55,013 nt of DNA from a virus. Numbering within the stretch: the stretch's first letter is position 1; every line of letters begins with the position of its first letter. The position numbers and the translations under genes were made by a program. Below the pieces are notes generated by a model, which ran no database searches, had not been told where the DNA came from, and saw only the letters and a list, made by a program, of their open reading frames with translations. Location: IMG/VR virus record IMGVR_UViG_3300022074_000052, positions 1 to 55,013 of that record, one strand, 5' to 3'. This document shows, piece after piece, positions 19,206 through 39,884 of this stretch.

Positions 19206-19445
19206 TCACAAAATTCTCCAGATGCGAACACCTAATTTATTATTCTCTACACGGACATACGCTTTTACGTCCCAACCCTTTGTTTTTGTTATAATTTTTA
19301 CTTGTTGTATAGCCTTGTGAGTGTTGACACACGGAATAAATACAGAGGAACTTGTTACCATATCACCCCATTTCACTATTATTCGCACCCCATCAGGGTT
19401 TAAATCATCAGTTTTCAGTATTCCCTGTCGTAGCTTCATCTTCAA
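19206..19445 (-). CDS. Unknown small protein, 79 aa
   Basis: The 5' end overlaps the 3' end of the primase gene by 38 nt. The sequence is basic and beta-rich (VRIIVKWGDMVTSSSVFIPC). It is the last gene of the leftward block and reads into the hairpin region. An in-frame ATG two codons later is equally possible as start. No family recognised. Confidence 0.55.
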   Translation of the reverse strand: MKMKLRQGILKTDDLNPDGVRIIVKWGDMVTSSSVFIPCVNTHKAIQQVKIITKTKGWDVKAYVRVENNKLGVRIWRIL

Positions 19446-22152
19446 TCAAACAGTCTACGGATATCACATCTGTAGGGGGTAAGTTCATGTGAGTGCCTTT
19501 GCTAAGACGTATCTTCACCCTCTTAGCGTTCAGTTTTTGTTTTAAATCCCCTATAAAAGCGTTGTAATTTATCTGATGCTGTCCACACCATGACTTCAAA
19601 GGTTTTGGTACGAGATACGCACGTTTTAAGTCTGTCTCGTATCGGGCTACAAGTTTACCTCTTGGTAACGCTTCAGGTATAACAAGGTTAGCTACGTCCC
19701 CCTCCTGCCTACGTAGGTCATCAGTGCTTTTAATCCATAGCACGTTGCTCCAATGCTCATGTATATAGTCGTTTAATGTCTCTTCTACCGACACGCTCAT
19801 TTCTTCTACCTGCCGTTTGTTTTCTTTTAAACACTTTATAGCCCAATCAAATATTTTCTTAGTGTCGTATTGAATTAGATCTAGGCGTTTAGCTATAACC
19901 AAACCTGTCATTGTACAAGCCACCAATACAGACCAAAACCTGTTCTCTGCTGTAAGTCCTGCCTTCTCGTCAACCCTACGTTGTATCTGATTGAGAAGCT
20001 TCTTAACTTCTTCTATATTATTTAAAACATACTTTATGTATACCTTTCCTGCATGACCATAGTTCTGTGATAGTCGTGAGGTAAACTCATCTGTCTCAGC
20101 TTTTGTATAGTAATTCTGCTTTGTAGCTTTATGCTCTAATATACGCTGTGCTTCTGCCTTGGGCATAGATTTTGCCATGCCTATCATTTCTACCACACTC
20201 GTATTGCCTGTGGTCACTGAAAGAAGTTTCCATACTTTACCTCTAGCTCTCTCTACGTTACTACTTGCTGACATACGACCACGCTGTCTACCACCCGTTA
20301 ACTGATACGCTAAATTAGAAAGTTCCATACTTTTCATATTAGTAAGTTCGTCCATATACAACGGTAGGTTATGGTATATCTCGCCCCTGTTCATCTTAGT
20401 ATTGTACGTATCTTCTTTATCTAATATCAACTCATCAGGATCTCCCCATGCAGATACACCTGCAATCATGGCAGTTGTCTTACCTAAACCTGACTCCTTA
20501 CTGTGCGTGTGAAAGCAAGCACACTTTATTGGTAGGAAACTCATTAGTGGAGACCCAAAGGACGTACCTACTATAAACTGATGTAATTCAAAGTTATCTA
20601 TATTATAGAAGTTCATTATGTCTTTCCACTCCTCCAGAGTGCCTTTAGGTTCAAAGTACGGAAACAAACCTGCAGTGGGTGTTGATGGGGGATTAAACTT
20701 TGTTTCGTTGGCGTGTACTTCTTGATTGCCAACCACAAACCCTGTATGCTCGTCGTCCGTCCAACCAAACTGTCTTCGAGCTTGATCTGCAGACCCCTTT
20801 GCTTGAAGTTGTGTTACCCATGTAGTTGTGTATGCCATGATATCATCCATTTTTGGTACAGCTATGCCTTGCATAGACAAATTTTTTCTTAACTCTTCTC
20901 TAGATGTTACAGAGGTCAAAGGTATTGTAAACTCTCTTACACCATCTTTAGGTAGGTGCAGACGCATGACTATGGCTTCGCCCATCTCTACGTCCATTAT
21001 ACGTTTTATCACGTAAAGGTCGTTTTGGTATATAACTTTATCCTCTTTATTACCATCCTTGTCTTTAAAGCGTAAATAGACACCTCCGTTTGCCCCCCGA
21101 AAATAGGGTTCTGGATATAACGGTATGTCTTTAGACGCAGGTGCTTTCTTTATACTCTTACCTAAAGATATAGGTGAAGTTATTTTGCCCCAATGTGGAC
21201 AAGTCGAGCATGGCTCTGGATCTTCTTCCGCAAACGTGGAACACGTATAAGGGCCTTTTATAAGCTCAACCTTATCATCTGTCAGGTGTTTGCTGTATTC
21301 TGGGTGTCTATCAGACATCTTATGCACTGCTTTGTCGGCATCGTTGCAGAACTTAGCTATAGACAGCCCTGCTCTCCATAAAGGCTCGCTTACGTCCTGT
21401 TGATTCTCCATGATGTTTTTGATTTGCTCACACCCTGTGCCTCTTATTGTTCTTGATAATATATCTTTGAACCCAAACTCTGAGTTCTCTATCAAAGCCT
21501 GTTTTAGGGCGTTAGCTTCATTGTCTACTTTCGTAGGCACAGTTACACCTTCTTTACCAACTACCCGTGCAAATTCGTCAAACTCCGTGCTACGAAACTC
21601 TCCTGTGCCAAAGAACATAACAGGTTTCTGTGTACCACGCTTATGGTTTTGTGTGCCAGGGACTCTGAGTACCCGCGCAGCGTCCGCAGTTACACCATTG
21701 TCTGCTGACAAGTTATGACGTATACACATATCTTTGAGGGCCTGCGCTACAGGTAACCACTCACCATACGATACACTCTCTGTAAGAACCCAGTATACAT
21801 GTATCCCATACCCAGAGTTTATAAGCATGGGTCGAGGCAATCCTGTCTCCTGCACAAATCTTTTTAGGTCTAAAAAAGCTGTATTCTGGTCGGAGTATTC
21901 TTTACCAACTCCACAGTCTAGATCTAAGTAGAAAGAACTGAGGCTCTTTACATTTGTTACTCGTCTGTCTTTATTTGTTTCGAATGTAGCTAAACCAAAG
22001 TATGCGTTGACACCTTCAGCGTCTAACTCGTTAGCCTTCTTTATAACATCGTCTATAGTTGCATGGAAGCTCTGTACCTTCTTGTCGCCAAGACCTAATA
22101 CAGAGTAGTATCCATCACCTAAAACCTTCTCTAAAAATTCTTTTGTTTCCAT
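19408..22152 (-). CDS. Primase-polymerase/helicase fusion, 914 aa
   Basis: The N-terminal part has archaeo-eukaryotic primase features: FYLDLDCG gives Asp77 and Asp79, and SGYGIHVYW places His118 as in RepB/PrimPol proteins. The C-terminal half holds an ATPase domain with Walker A SGLGKTT (about residue 550) and PLYMDELTN as a Walker B-like stretch, resembling DUF927-type phage helicases. It would synthesise primers and unwind DNA at the phage fork with PolA and SSB. The ATG at 22152 is chosen because AAGGTGGG lies 4 nt upstream; an in-frame ATG 33 nt earlier lacks such a site. A structured leader precedes it. Confidence 0.85.
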   Translation of the reverse strand: METKEFLEKVLGDGYYSVLGLGDKKVQSFHATIDDVIKKANELDAEGVNAYFGLATFETNKDRRVTNVKSLSSFYLDLDCGVGKEYSDQNTAFLDLKRFVQETGLPRPMLINSGYGIHVYWVLTESVSYGEWLPVAQALKDMCIRHNLSADNGVTADAARVLRVPGTQNHKRGTQKPVMFFGTGEFRSTEFDEFARVVGKEGVTVPTKVDNEANALKQALIENSEFGFKDILSRTIRGTGCEQIKNIMENQQDVSEPLWRAGLSIAKFCNDADKAVHKMSDRHPEYSKHLTDDKVELIKGPYTCSTFAEEDPEPCSTCPHWGKITSPISLGKSIKKAPASKDIPLYPEPYFRGANGGVYLRFKDKDGNKEDKVIYQNDLYVIKRIMDVEMGEAIVMRLHLPKDGVREFTIPLTSVTSREELRKNLSMQGIAVPKMDDIMAYTTTWVTQLQAKGSADQARRQFGWTDDEHTGFVVGNQEVHANETKFNPPSTPTAGLFPYFEPKGTLEEWKDIMNFYNIDNFELHQFIVGTSFGSPLMSFLPIKCACFHTHSKESGLGKTTAMIAGVSAWGDPDELILDKEDTYNTKMNRGEIYHNLPLYMDELTNMKSMELSNLAYQLTGGRQRGRMSASSNVERARGKVWKLLSVTTGNTSVVEMIGMAKSMPKAEAQRILEHKATKQNYYTKAETDEFTSRLSQNYGHAGKVYIKYVLNNIEEVKKLLNQIQRRVDEKAGLTAENRFWSVLVACTMTGLVIAKRLDLIQYDTKKIFDWAIKCLKENKRQVEEMSVSVEETLNDYIHEHWSNVLWIKSTDDLRRQEGDVANLVIPEALPRGKLVARYETDLKRAYLVPKPLKSWCGQHQINYNAFIGDLKQKLNAKRVKIRLSKGTHMNLPPTDVISVDCLIEDEATTGNTEN

Positions 22153-22156
22153 TTTT

Positions 22157-22228
22157 CCCACCTTGTGCCGAAGACACCACGACAAGATACGGCACGTTAT
22201 CCTTTCGGTAAAAACCTAGTCGTGGTGT
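22157..22228 (-). promoter_or_regulatory. Structured leader with two interleaved stems before primase gene
   Basis: In the leftward transcript, ACACCACGAC (from 22228-22219 and its partner GTCGTGGTGT from 22183-22174) can form a 10-bp stem, while GTGCCG (22195-22190) lies in its loop and can pair with CGGCAC (22170-22165) beyond it. A small CC-GAAA-GG tetraloop hairpin lies in the same loop. The second stem ends 0-2 nt before the AAGGTGGG ribosome site. The order makes the stems either a pseudoknot or, given the 3-nt linker across a 10-bp stem, more likely alternatives. This fits translational control, but is inferred from pairing only. Confidence 0.5.
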
Positions 22229-30305: not shown

Positions 30306-30584
30306 TTAGCTTAGTGAACCACTAACCTCTTTTACATAAATATAAAACTCGCTATCGCTTGCTCTATACCCTATCTCTGAATTATACTCTAACATGGGTT
30401 CAAGCATCATCAGCACTACCAACTTATCTTGAACCCACTTAGGTAGATCGTCTACACTGTCATACCACTCTTTTAATTCACTGTCAACACAATACATACC
30501 TAAACATAACACATGAACTCTTTTCGTATTAACATCTATCTTAACTTGGTATAACGTGTAATCCTGTGTGTTACTGTATGACAT
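30306..30584 (-). CDS. Unknown protein, 92 aa, paralogous to C-terminus of upstream neighbour
   Basis: The start at 30584 (MSYSNTQDYTLYQVKIDVNT) lies inside the end of the upstream gene, with AGGAGA 11 nt before it; a longer frame to 30635 is possible. The end (IGYRASDSEFYIYVKE), together with DLPKWVQDKLVVLMMLEP, repeats the pattern at the C-terminus of the 283-aa protein upstream, so the two probably share a domain by duplication. A palindrome covers its last codons. Confidence 0.6.
   Translation of the reverse strand: MSYSNTQDYTLYQVKIDVNTKRVHVLCLGMYCVDSELKEWYDSVDDLPKWVQDKLVVLMMLEPMLEYNSEIGYRASDSEFYIYVKEVSGSLS
30309..30327. repeat. 19-bp palindrome, copy 1
   Basis: GCTTAGTGAACCACTAACC. It covers the last codons of the 92-aa gene, ending 1 nt before its stop codon on the minus strand. 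It is the leftmost copy. Confidence 0.85.
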
Positions 30585-31422
30585 AAAACATATTGTCTCC
30601 TGCCTTATAGCCCACGTCATCGACAAAGCCTTCACCCTCTAACACGTTAAGAGACATTACCTTACCTTTGATCTCTTCAGGCAGAGTTGCAACAGAGTAC
30701 TCCTCGTAAGGCATATCAGCCCACGACCCTACATAGTTAACATCTTTCGTACACACGATATAGGTTTCGTTACCCCACTTCATGTAAGCATAAACAAAGT
30801 ATAAGTTGAGTTTTTTCTGTTTATCCTCAAACCACTCCTTGCGTTTAGCGACCATCTCTAACACGTTATCATGCAGTTCTTTGTCCAAGAATGTATGTCC
30901 GTTCTCTACTAGGCTTACCAACTCAAGTGCCATCTTCTCTCTGTTGCCACCCTCTAAACCTATCTTATGTTGGCACTCGCTGTAGGCATGCGCGAACTTT
31001 TTACGCACTTGCTCGAACGCCCTATTGATACTTGAATACTCTTTCTGCGCTACCACGCCCCAAGGTATAGGTCTGAGATATGCTTTCGCGTTTCGTATAG
31101 CTTGGTGCATGTTTACAGACATTTTCATATTATAGTTATCGTTGTAGTCAGCATACTTGTCATTGCATATGTTAGGTGATGACACACAAAAGTGTTCGAG
31201 CTGCCTTTCAGCATTTTCTCTTGGGTCGCCAAAGTATAAGCACCCCATAGGATATGGGTGTCCTTCCATATGCACAAACTTGTAATAGTCATTAGTATAT
31301 GTACCAAACTTGATACCTCTAATGGCTTTTCGCACCTCTCTACAAAACTTATCAATAGGTTCGTTCGTAGTCGGTTGGTATTCTGTTAGGTCGTTTACCC
31401 TTATGTCAAATTTTCTATCCAT
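30571..31422 (-). CDS. Unknown protein, 283 aa
   Basis: A two-part protein: a helical region with conserved-looking Tyr/Asp stretches (KFGTYTNDYYKFVHMEGHPY; NMHQAIRNAKAYLRPIPWGV) and a C-terminal unit (LPEEIKGKVMSLNVLEGEGF, then VGYKAGDNMFYVIQ) shared with the next gene. Phage early proteins of this kind are seen in other marine phages without a function. It is linked to its neighbours by short overlaps. Confidence 0.65.
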   Translation of the reverse strand: MDRKFDIRVNDLTEYQPTTNEPIDKFCREVRKAIRGIKFGTYTNDYYKFVHMEGHPYPMGCLYFGDPRENAERQLEHFCVSSPNICNDKYADYNDNYNMKMSVNMHQAIRNAKAYLRPIPWGVVAQKEYSSINRAFEQVRKKFAHAYSECQHKIGLEGGNREKMALELVSLVENGHTFLDKELHDNVLEMVAKRKEWFEDKQKKLNLYFVYAYMKWGNETYIVCTKDVNYVGSWADMPYEEYSVATLPEEIKGKVMSLNVLEGEGFVDDVGYKAGDNMFYVIQ

Positions 31423-37681: not shown

Positions 37682-37710
37682 ATTATAGCATATATACCCT
37701 AACTTGTCAA
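37682..37710 (-). promoter_or_regulatory. Perfect sigma70 promoter for the leftward early block
   Basis: On the minus strand TTGACA (37710-37705) and TATAAT (37687-37682) are separated by exactly 17 nt. Both boxes match the consensus at every base. It lies 45 nt before the zinc-finger gene and is well placed to drive 37637 leftward through the MoxR group. Confidence 0.9.
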
Positions 37711-37988
37711 GTAATACCGAGATTTTACTTTTGGTATTATCAAATTAAGTTTTACGTTACTTACTAAGCTACGGTGTAATGTACTGTAATGTACTCGAAT
37801 GTTCTGTTGTGTACGTCTGTAAGTATTTGATATTATTACAATGTTCTAATGTTCTCTTTTTTGGGGAATTGTGAAGGGGTGGCGGAACGTCTGTAAGAGG
37901 GCGAACATTACATACGCAAAGGTCGGTCGAGAGAATGTTGTCGCTCAATTTTTTAAAAATAGAACATTATATATATATATATAATATA

Positions 37989-38007
37989 GGTTAGTTATTC
38001 ACTAACC
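37989..38007. repeat. 19-bp palindrome, copy 6
   Basis: GGTTAGTTATTCACTAACC. It has one change in the left arm and lies next to the A/T run in the candidate origin. Confidence 0.8.
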
Positions 38008-38016
38008 CTATGCTAT

Positions 38017-38046
38017 CAGATGTCACCAGATGTCACCAGATGTCAC
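38017..38046 (+). repeat. Three tandem copies of CAGATGTCAC
   Basis: Perfect 10-bp units at 38017, 38027 and 38037, directly beside palindrome copy 6 and within the iteron field. The 10-bp period puts each unit on the same helical face. Confidence 0.95.
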
Positions 38047-38143
38047 AAAAATATAATGTACGTTTTACCCTAAAAAAAAGCGAACATTGCGGAACATTGC
38101 AAAGATAAAAACGAACATTACACCTAGGCTCGACGCTACATAG

Positions 38144-38232
38144 AAAACTGGCTTCAAAAGGTTAGGCACTAAGCTACATGCTTCAGCAGAAACAGAAAAC
38201 TGGTATCTATCTAACTGGTTTCATATAACTGG
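38144..38232 (+). repeat. Four AACTGG elements
   Basis: (AA)AACTGG at 38144 and 38196, and TAACTGG at 38212 and 38226, mostly followed by (C/T)(A/T)TCA. A similar element lies alone near 30255. They are degenerate, so the unit boundary is uncertain. Confidence 0.55.
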
Positions 38233-38250
38233 CATCAAAAATTTGGACAC

Positions 38251-38283
38251 AAAAAAAGCCACCTAAGTTTCCCTAGGTGGCTT
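38251..38283 (-). terminator. Rho-independent terminator
   Basis: AAGCCACCTA (38256-38265) pairs perfectly with TAGGTGGCTT (38274-38283) around an 8-nt loop. On the minus strand the hairpin is followed by a T7 run (38257-38251). It lies just after the stop of the 226-aa gene and would separate that transcript from the origin region. Confidence 0.9.
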
Positions 38284-38298
38284 AGTGATTGACTAACC
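38280..38298. repeat. 19-bp palindrome, copy 7
   Basis: GCTTAGTGATTGACTAACC. It overlaps the terminator stem at one end and the stop codon of the 226-aa gene at the other. Confidence 0.8.
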
Positions 38299-38978
38299 TA
38301 CTTGTTTGTTGGGACAGTTATTCGCTGTCTCATAGTCTCTTTTGCCATTGTTAACTGCTTTATGATATTGTCTACATTGGCAAACGTAGTGTCTTTTCTG
38401 TTTTTGATCTTGTTAATCATAATACCTAATGTCTTTATCTGACTATCTTCAAAAGGTAGATTAGGAACTGGGGTAGTTTCTGCTCTTAACCAACCAACCA
38501 ACTTTTTTCTTACTGTGGTTTGTTGCTTGTTCCAGTAATCGAACATTCCCTTATCTTCATTAGATAGTTGAGATTTTCTTTCGTCTCCTGTCATGCAGTA
38601 GATACCATGAATTTTCTTGCCCATGCTTTGGAACATCATATCTTTAATGAATAATGCTTGTTCCACATTGGCAGTACAATTCTCATTGCTTACTTCAAGT
38701 TTGGTAATATCGAAGTGTTGCGGATTTTCAACTGTCACTAACTTACCCTCGGCAGTTCTAGTCTTGAACTTAGGTTCGAAAGCATCAGACTGTTTAAATC
38801 CTAACTTCTTAACAAGTGTATCCTTAACAAACTGCTTTCCAGTCTCGAAAGCTCTATCACTTTCTTCTTTCTTTCTCTCCCCAGTTAGAATGTAAGTGCA
38901 AGCCTCAATAAGTGCAGAGCTTGTTTTATCGTTGATTTGAAAAGAGTTTGTTTTGATTATGTTTGTTTGCTTGTTCAT
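38298..38978 (-). CDS. Unknown early protein, 226 aa
   Basis: Starts MNKQTNIIKTNSFQINDKTS after AAAGGATATAATC. The protein is basic and Lys-rich with helical ends (ALIEACTYILTGERKKEESD; NVDNIIKQLTMAKETMRQRI). It stands alone, with its own promoter, a palindrome in its leader and a strong terminator. A separately controlled gene beside an origin could encode an initiator or regulator, but I see no DNA-binding motif to support this. Confidence 0.65.
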   Translation of the reverse strand: MNKQTNIIKTNSFQINDKTSSALIEACTYILTGERKKEESDRAFETGKQFVKDTLVKKLGFKQSDAFEPKFKTRTAEGKLVTVENPQHFDITKLEVSNENCTANVEQALFIKDMMFQSMGKKIHGIYCMTGDERKSQLSNEDKGMFDYWNKQQTTVRKKLVGWLRAETTPVPNLPFEDSQIKTLGIMINKIKNRKDTTFANVDNIIKQLTMAKETMRQRITVPTNK

Positions 38979-39290: not shown

Positions 39291-39884
39291 ATGACTATTG
39301 TAGTAGAACCAGAGTTGAACGTACCTATGAAAAAGGGTAGATCTTCGGCTGATCTAAAGGCACGTGTAGGAGCAGCCGCGAACACAGCAAAGGAGTTGGG
39401 AGAGCATGGCATCGACCTTGAACCCACCAAAGAAGACAAAGATACAGCCGCAAGGTTATCCGTTGCTTACGCTGATGATCCTGAAGATGTGTCGAAACAA
39501 GCTACCGAACAGAAAATGGCAACGCTAACCCCCGCCTCTCTTGTCCTAACAGACAGTATTTTGAAGCAGTTTGGTCGTTCTGTGGTTGAAAGTGCTGTAC
39601 AAATACGGCATTTGGTGACAAATAAGCTGATAGAAGAGACTGAAAACCCTGATCCAAGGGTACGTATACGTGCTTTAGAGCTTCTAGGTAAGATTTCGGA
39701 CGTAGGATTGTTCGCTGAGAAGTCCGAAGTCACCATAACACACCAGTCTACGGACGATTTACGGGAAAGATTGCGTTCAAAGCTCACAAAATTGGTAAAT
39801 CCAGTCGAAGATGCGGCTGTAATTGATGGTGAACCCATAGATGTGGACAAAGAACTAGGTTTAGACGAGGAAAAAGGTGAATAA
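39291..39884 (+). CDS. terS: Terminase small subunit, 197 aa
   Basis: The C-terminal half (VRIRALELLGKISDVGLFAE, then SEVTITHQSTDDLRERLRSK) is the pattern of small terminase subunits in marine phages with this type of TerL. The N-terminal part is disordered and charged. It would bind packaging sites on phage DNA and load TerL. There is no clear ribosome site before the ATG; a later in-frame ATG (39327) is possible. The 3' end overlaps terL by 8 nt. Confidence 0.75.
   Translation: MTIVVEPELNVPMKKGRSSADLKARVGAAANTAKELGEHGIDLEPTKEDKDTAARLSVAYADDPEDVSKQATEQKMATLTPASLVLTDSILKQFGRSVVESAVQIRHLVTNKLIEETENPDPRVRIRALELLGKISDVGLFAEKSEVTITHQSTDDLRERLRSKLTKLVNPVEDAAVIDGEPIDVDKELGLDEEKGE

Follow-up and report, generated by a model that had tools for sequence, protein, structure and literature searches.

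The window (the whole 55,013-nt stretch of viral DNA that we analyzed) contains an intergenic array of short repeats just upstream of a strong leftward promoter (37682-37710). This promoter drives the leftward early genes, which encode a DNA polymerase, an SNF2-type helicase, an exonuclease, a gp2.5-like SSB, an ATPase, and VWA proteins. At the far end of this early region, 15.6 kb from the array, is the gene for a 925-aa protein. The right flank of the array is a leftward gene for a 226-aa protein, which ends in a terminator. Beyond it are rightward genes for a 197-aa presumed small terminase (39291-39884), TerL, and the portal. The features that we discuss are:

19408-22185, - strand: 925-aa predicted initiator, with a primase-like N-terminal domain, a DUF927 AAA+ helicase, and a C-terminal domain with P904 and D906
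37682-37710, - strand: leftward early promoter, TTGACA-17-TATAAT (12/12 match to the sigma-70 consensus)
37778-37804, - strand: left iteron group, part 1, two AATGTAC variants (37778 and 37788) and one intact AATGTTC (37798) with a 10-bp period (relatives have intact copies at the same lattice positions)
37820-37832, - strand: IHF-consensus site TATCAAATACTTA, an exact match to WATCAANNNNTTR, between left iterons
37840-37854, - strand: left iteron group, part 2, two AATGTTC 8 bp apart (a doublet in many relatives)
37903-37909, + strand: GAACATT iteron
37962-37968, + strand: GAACATT iteron adjoining the A/T run (conserved position)
37958-37988, no strand: A/T run, predicted DNA unwinding element, with the least stable 30-bp stretch of the window
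37989-38007, no strand: early-region palindrome GGTTAGTGAnTCACTAACC, one of eight copies (0.06 expected), a possible operator
38017-38046, + strand: CAGATGTCAC three times in tandem with a 10-bp period, to the right of the A/T run (in many relatives, this place is taken by other tandem repeats of 10-11 bp)
38055-38061, - strand: AATGTAC variant iteron (an intact reverse copy in several relatives)
38082-38119, + strand: right iteron group, GAACATT at 38082, 38092, and 38113
38146-38236, + strand: four AACTGG elements, each followed by NNTC (AACTGGTATC is also in the distant relative G055)
38256-38283, - strand: intrinsic terminator of the 226-aa gene, a 12-bp stem and then a T run, which insulates the array
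38298-38978, - strand: 226-aa protein, not conserved with the array

The repeats that an initial annotation had listed for this gap are all present. There are exactly 8 copies of GAACATT/AATGTTC (at 37798, 37840, and 37848 on the - strand and at 37903, 37962, 38082, 38092, and 38113 on the + strand), along with the three tandem units, two copies of ACGTCTGTAAG (37813 and 37887), four AACTGG elements (38146, 38198, 38213, and 38227), an A/T run (37964-37986), and a single copy of the early-region palindrome. The annotation's impression that this density of short repeats is unmatched elsewhere is backed by k-mer counts: over all 450-bp stretches of the 55-kb window, the top count for a single 6-mer or 7-mer is in the array.

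The 8 copies of GAACATT lie within 322 bp, where 0.055 copies would be expected (Poisson P about 2e-15). Across the whole window, GAACATT occurs 11 times, as compared to 9.2 ± 3.1 in shuffled sequences, so it is the clustering that is the signal. Three AATGTAC variants (37778, 37788, and 38055) sit on a lattice of spacings that is filled by intact iterons in relatives. AACTGG by itself is frequent, with 28 copies in the window.

The eight GAACATT elements surround the least stable 30 bp and the least stable 50 bp of all 55 kb (the 50-bp minimum begins at 37948). The site in the left arm is one of only 4 exact IHF-consensus sites in the window. We discarded GC skew as evidence for an origin: it tracks gene orientation, with an interior minimum at about 39.25 kb, where transcription diverges, 1.2 kb from the array. 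The skew criterion of the initial annotation is therefore uninformative here.

The 19-bp palindrome is confined to the early region, with copies at 30309, 33573, 36139, 37271, 37572, 37989, 38280, and 39014. Most relatives have a recurrent palindrome of their own, often with another sequence (for example, GATAAGT arms 10 times in G001, GTAGTGA 11 times in G009, and GTTAGGG 8 times in G022). These look like a type-variable operator system.

Conservation of the array

We retrieved 80 related loci by using TerL. The array is kept upstream of the terminase genes in about 36 relatives from IMG/VR, and we found it in the examined loci that reach far enough upstream. Across these roughly 36 sources, the layout of the array is constant while the flanking sequence and the neighboring gene differ. 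In this shared layout, inverted groups of iterons keep fixed spacings, an A/T run lies at the center, and an IHF-consensus site is usually present. Relative to the first iteron, reverse copies are at 0, 10, 20, 62, and 70 bp, followed by a forward copy at ~184, a reverse copy at ~276, and forward copies at ~303, 313, 324, and 345-357. Not every position is occupied in each phage, and the three AATGTAC variants of the window occupy positions that would otherwise be missing.

In 35 of the 36 sources, the 30 bp of lowest stability in the array region fall inside the array, usually beside the central forward iteron. In the left arm, 17 of the 36 sources have an exact IHF site and 27 of the 36 have one with at most one mismatch, while just 1.6% of shuffles have an exact site. 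The best left-arm match is nearly always on the - strand and at the same place. The lack of these repeats in relatives had been put forward in the initial annotation as a result that would speak against an origin. The repeats are conserved, which favors an origin.

Some other elements vary. Exact CAGATGTCAC and ACGTCTGTAAG are found in the closest relatives only. To the right of the A/T run, the sequence of the tandem 10-11-bp repeats differs among relatives, and their place and period are kept. Some relatives have runs of TAC/TAG triplets at this place, which are reminiscent of DnaA-trio elements. Near the terminator, AACTGG(T/C)ATC elements are kept even in the distant relative G055 (L446).

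Among named phages, a search for DNA similarity to this region gave only chance-level matches. HTVC027P and DSL-LC04, which are related by their terminases, are absent from the phage records that match the initiator, and the stretches of them that we scanned contain no AACATT-type array.

The 925-aa protein and the iteron types

The initial annotation saw no known initiator gene and suggested that the 226-aa protein next to the array might bind the repeats. Neither idea survived. The 226-aa protein was found in only 3 loci from IMG/VR and is absent or unrecognizable in most of the relatives that have the array. As for an initiator, the 925-aa protein contains DUF927 (PF06048, E = 4e-24), with the P-loop motif ESGLGKTT in its translation. 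In the PDB, it matches 8tch (the SaPIbov1 replication initiator) and 5dgk (SCCmec Cch) by sequence, and by fold these are the closest solved structures (3e-18 for 5dgk and 6e-17 for 8tch). 5dgk is the best fold match for the helicase and the C-terminal part. At the N-terminus, the similarity to primases is weak and at the level of PHROG. The protein may start at the ATG at codon 12. A search of cellular genomes with a profile of the initiator gave no match.

The iterons of the relatives have a nearly constant core, AACATT, and a variable prefix: [AC]G in the window and in most relatives, and otherwise TGG or CGG, GGT, TGT, or TGA (in G002). In G055 the core itself is changed (GTCACATT). Besides [AC]GAACATT, examples of the types are TGGAACATT, GGTAACATT, and TGTAACATT. 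Because the prefix varies, the protein that reads these sites should vary likewise.

We considered 18 genomes in which both the array and the initiator are present (we excluded G046 and G055 once we knew their results). In this set, V904 of the 925-aa protein is found in exactly the 4 phages of GT type, and D906 is found in exactly the 11 phages with [AC]G. Residue 904 covaries with base -1 of the iteron and residue 906 with base -2, and W, H, or R at position 906 always goes with G at -2. The alleles at 904/906 include P/D in the window, P/W in G023, V/H in G004 and G027, and V/R in G022. Among 8,403 columns of conserved proteins from these 18 genomes, 904 and 906 are the sole pair of perfect columns within 4 residues of each other. 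With all genomes included, of 4,652 columns, 906 ranks third (for base -2) and 904 ranks ninth (for base -1). Shared ancestry does not explain the match, because the iteron types are dispersed over the gene trees (on the initiator tree, they take 7 steps, versus a mean of 7.6 for shuffled types).

The last beta strand predicted for the C-terminal domain contains both P904 and D906. The predicted domain has moderate confidence (pLDDT of about 80-87 around 904/906), and if folded alone, it gives a poor model. Position 906 can be D, W, R, H, Y, or G amid nearly invariant neighbors.

We also fixed five predictions before checking them. Those for G045, G048, and G050 were right. The prediction for G055 was wrong; this phage has a new residue (Y906) along with its changed core. 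The prediction for G046 was wrong as registered, and a second initiator allele at the start of its contig (H906) fits its GGAACATT array. In this contig (66816 bases), bases 1-303 and the end encode different alleles of the initiator's C-terminus, with 78% DNA identity, which suggests that the contig was assembled from two strains. With two initiator alleles, the contig is ambiguous.

Overall, the covariation points to 904 and 906 as residues that help set the iteron sequence read by the initiator, and it gives indirect support to the C-terminal domain as the iteron reader. The phage protein that reads the repeats is most likely the 925-aa protein.

We considered other readers as well. The DUF3150 protein, the presumed small terminase, TerL, and other replication proteins were rejected as binders, as their identity or residue patterns do not track iteron type. 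Isolated perfect columns occur in a fast-evolving protein as well, but this protein was not found in several genomes. This 283-aa early protein (30571-31422, - strand) is only 27-34% identical among phages whose terminases are about 86-90% identical. More generally, the array might be an origin whose iterons are bound by another protein of the phage or the host, with the match to 904/906 arising by coincidence or indirectly. Some neighboring perfect pair does turn up in 8 of 300 shuffles of the labels, and the region contains further conserved motifs that have no assigned reader. We nevertheless think that such a binder is unlikely, given that the pair lies in the very domain that relatives of the 925-aa protein use for iterons, that 906 is hypervariable in invariant surroundings, and that the predictions were correct in three new genomes.

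A candidate replication origin

This stretch is very probably where the genome-copying of this group of marine phages starts. The initial annotation's proposal of a replication origin is well supported: the iteron lattice is conserved and encloses the stability minimum, an IHF-consensus site is present, and the phage encodes an initiator-helicase that matches. More specifically, we are fairly confident that the array (37778-38119) is the origin, that the 925-aa helicase is its initiator and reads the iterons with its C-terminal domain, and that 904 and 906 help set bases -1 and -2.

How replication might begin, we infer from this arrangement. The C-terminal domain of the 925-aa initiator would bind the 7-8-bp iterons, which are [AC]GAACATT in this phage, and assemblies would form on the two inverted iteron groups. 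IHF would probably bend the left arm. The A/T run between the iteron groups would then melt, and the 925-aa protein would load itself as the helicase. The fused primase domain would act next, together with the DNA polymerase, SSB, and nucleases that the phage itself encodes in the leftward early region. Residues 904 and 906, on the last beta strand of the initiator's C-terminal domain, would help set bases -1 and -2 before the AACATT core.

The array might instead be a regulatory region, with an early phage regulator on the iterons controlling the sigma-70 promoter at 37682-37710. We consider this quite unlikely. The array does lie just upstream of this strong leftward promoter, but its iterons span 340 bp, and their inverted groups have an A/T melting site and an IHF-consensus site among them. 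The dispersed family of early-region palindromes is a better candidate for an operator, and the residues that covary best belong to a helicase rather than to a small regulator. (Binding by the initiator could also autoregulate its own operon.) It is very improbable that the array is a packaging site (cos or pac) that is read by the presumed small terminase: the array is upstream of the terminase genes in the examined relatives that have both, but 1.2 kb and a gene of opposite orientation separate it from the presumed small-terminase gene. Moreover, G016 has a 93%-identical 197-aa protein and yet a different iteron type, and neither in this protein nor in TerL does any residue divide perfectly along iteron types.

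As an origin, the array resembles those of SaPIs. According to the part of PMC7581432 that treats these elements, the C-terminal domain of SaPI Rep recognizes the iterons of the origin, and Cch (DUF927) is related to SaPIbov1 Rep. SaPIbov1 Rep and the SaPI origins (8tch; Ubeda et al., as cited there) have a DUF927-related AAA+ helicase and multiple short iterons, with recognition attributed to the C-terminal domain; this phage likewise has a DUF927 AAA+ helicase with a P-loop, and short iterons with an AT-rich region. But the SaPI origin is directly downstream of rep, while this array is beside the early promoter. Also, a primase-like domain is fused to the helicase here, and the element is not a satellite but a tailed phage that encodes its own DNA polymerase. 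We take the array to work like a SaPI replicon, but because it is 15.6 kb from the initiator gene, we do not classify it as one. SCCmec Cch (5dgk) is also a DUF927 helicase, but no fused primase-like domain is reported for it in the account that we drew on. That part of PMC7581432 describes the SCC origin as not identified before, and the one that is proposed is for Cch2, which belongs to another helicase family.

The domain order of the 925-aa protein is similar to that of the PrimQH and all3500 families. These are primase-DUF927 fusions of mobile elements, with the primase domain first, and their ATPase domains are predicted to be replication helicases (PMC5862659). The section of PMC5862659 that describes them assigns neither an origin nor recognition residues.

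More distant initiators are in other phages. Pseudomonas phage Rollin (OR577172) has a 29%-identical initiator and an array of iterons and A/T, but its iteron is TATGCAA. In Rollin, 8 of the 9 copies of TATGCAA are at 260-680, and three of them, with a 9-bp period, adjoin the least stable 30 bp of the genome. Rhizobium phage RHph_TM3_14A (MN988472) has a 24%-identical initiator and a very A/T-rich non-coding block; we recognized no iterons in this phage.

Other kinds of origin fit less well. Theta-plasmid iteron origins have a winged-helix initiator of the Rep_3/RepA type, and we found none of that family among ten early or neighboring proteins. In lambda O-type origins, the iterons are within the initiator gene, while this array is intergenic and far from it. 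In PLEs (PMC8263062), the initiator and the origin type covary and have switched repeatedly, as they do here, but RepA of the PLEs is an unrelated RepA_N initiator, and its iterons are semi-palindromes of about 30 bp.

With these results, both an origin and an initiator are assigned for marine phages of a widespread group; nothing that we found had annotated where their replication starts. They also propose which residues of a DUF927 initiator read which bases of the iteron. A broader idea is that origin recognition is a naturally diversifying code, in which the iteron type is set by the hypervariable residue 906, with help from 904 and from the hairpin's opposite strand, and has switched repeatedly even though the gene and the origin are 15 kb apart. 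We see the case for and against this idea as evenly balanced. If it is true, then repeated switching of types would match a history in which selection drives origin types apart, for example through nucleases that target origins or through the exclusion of one co-infecting phage by another. The natural alleles make the specificity of initiator for origin, and the joint switching of a distant gene and its site, directly testable.
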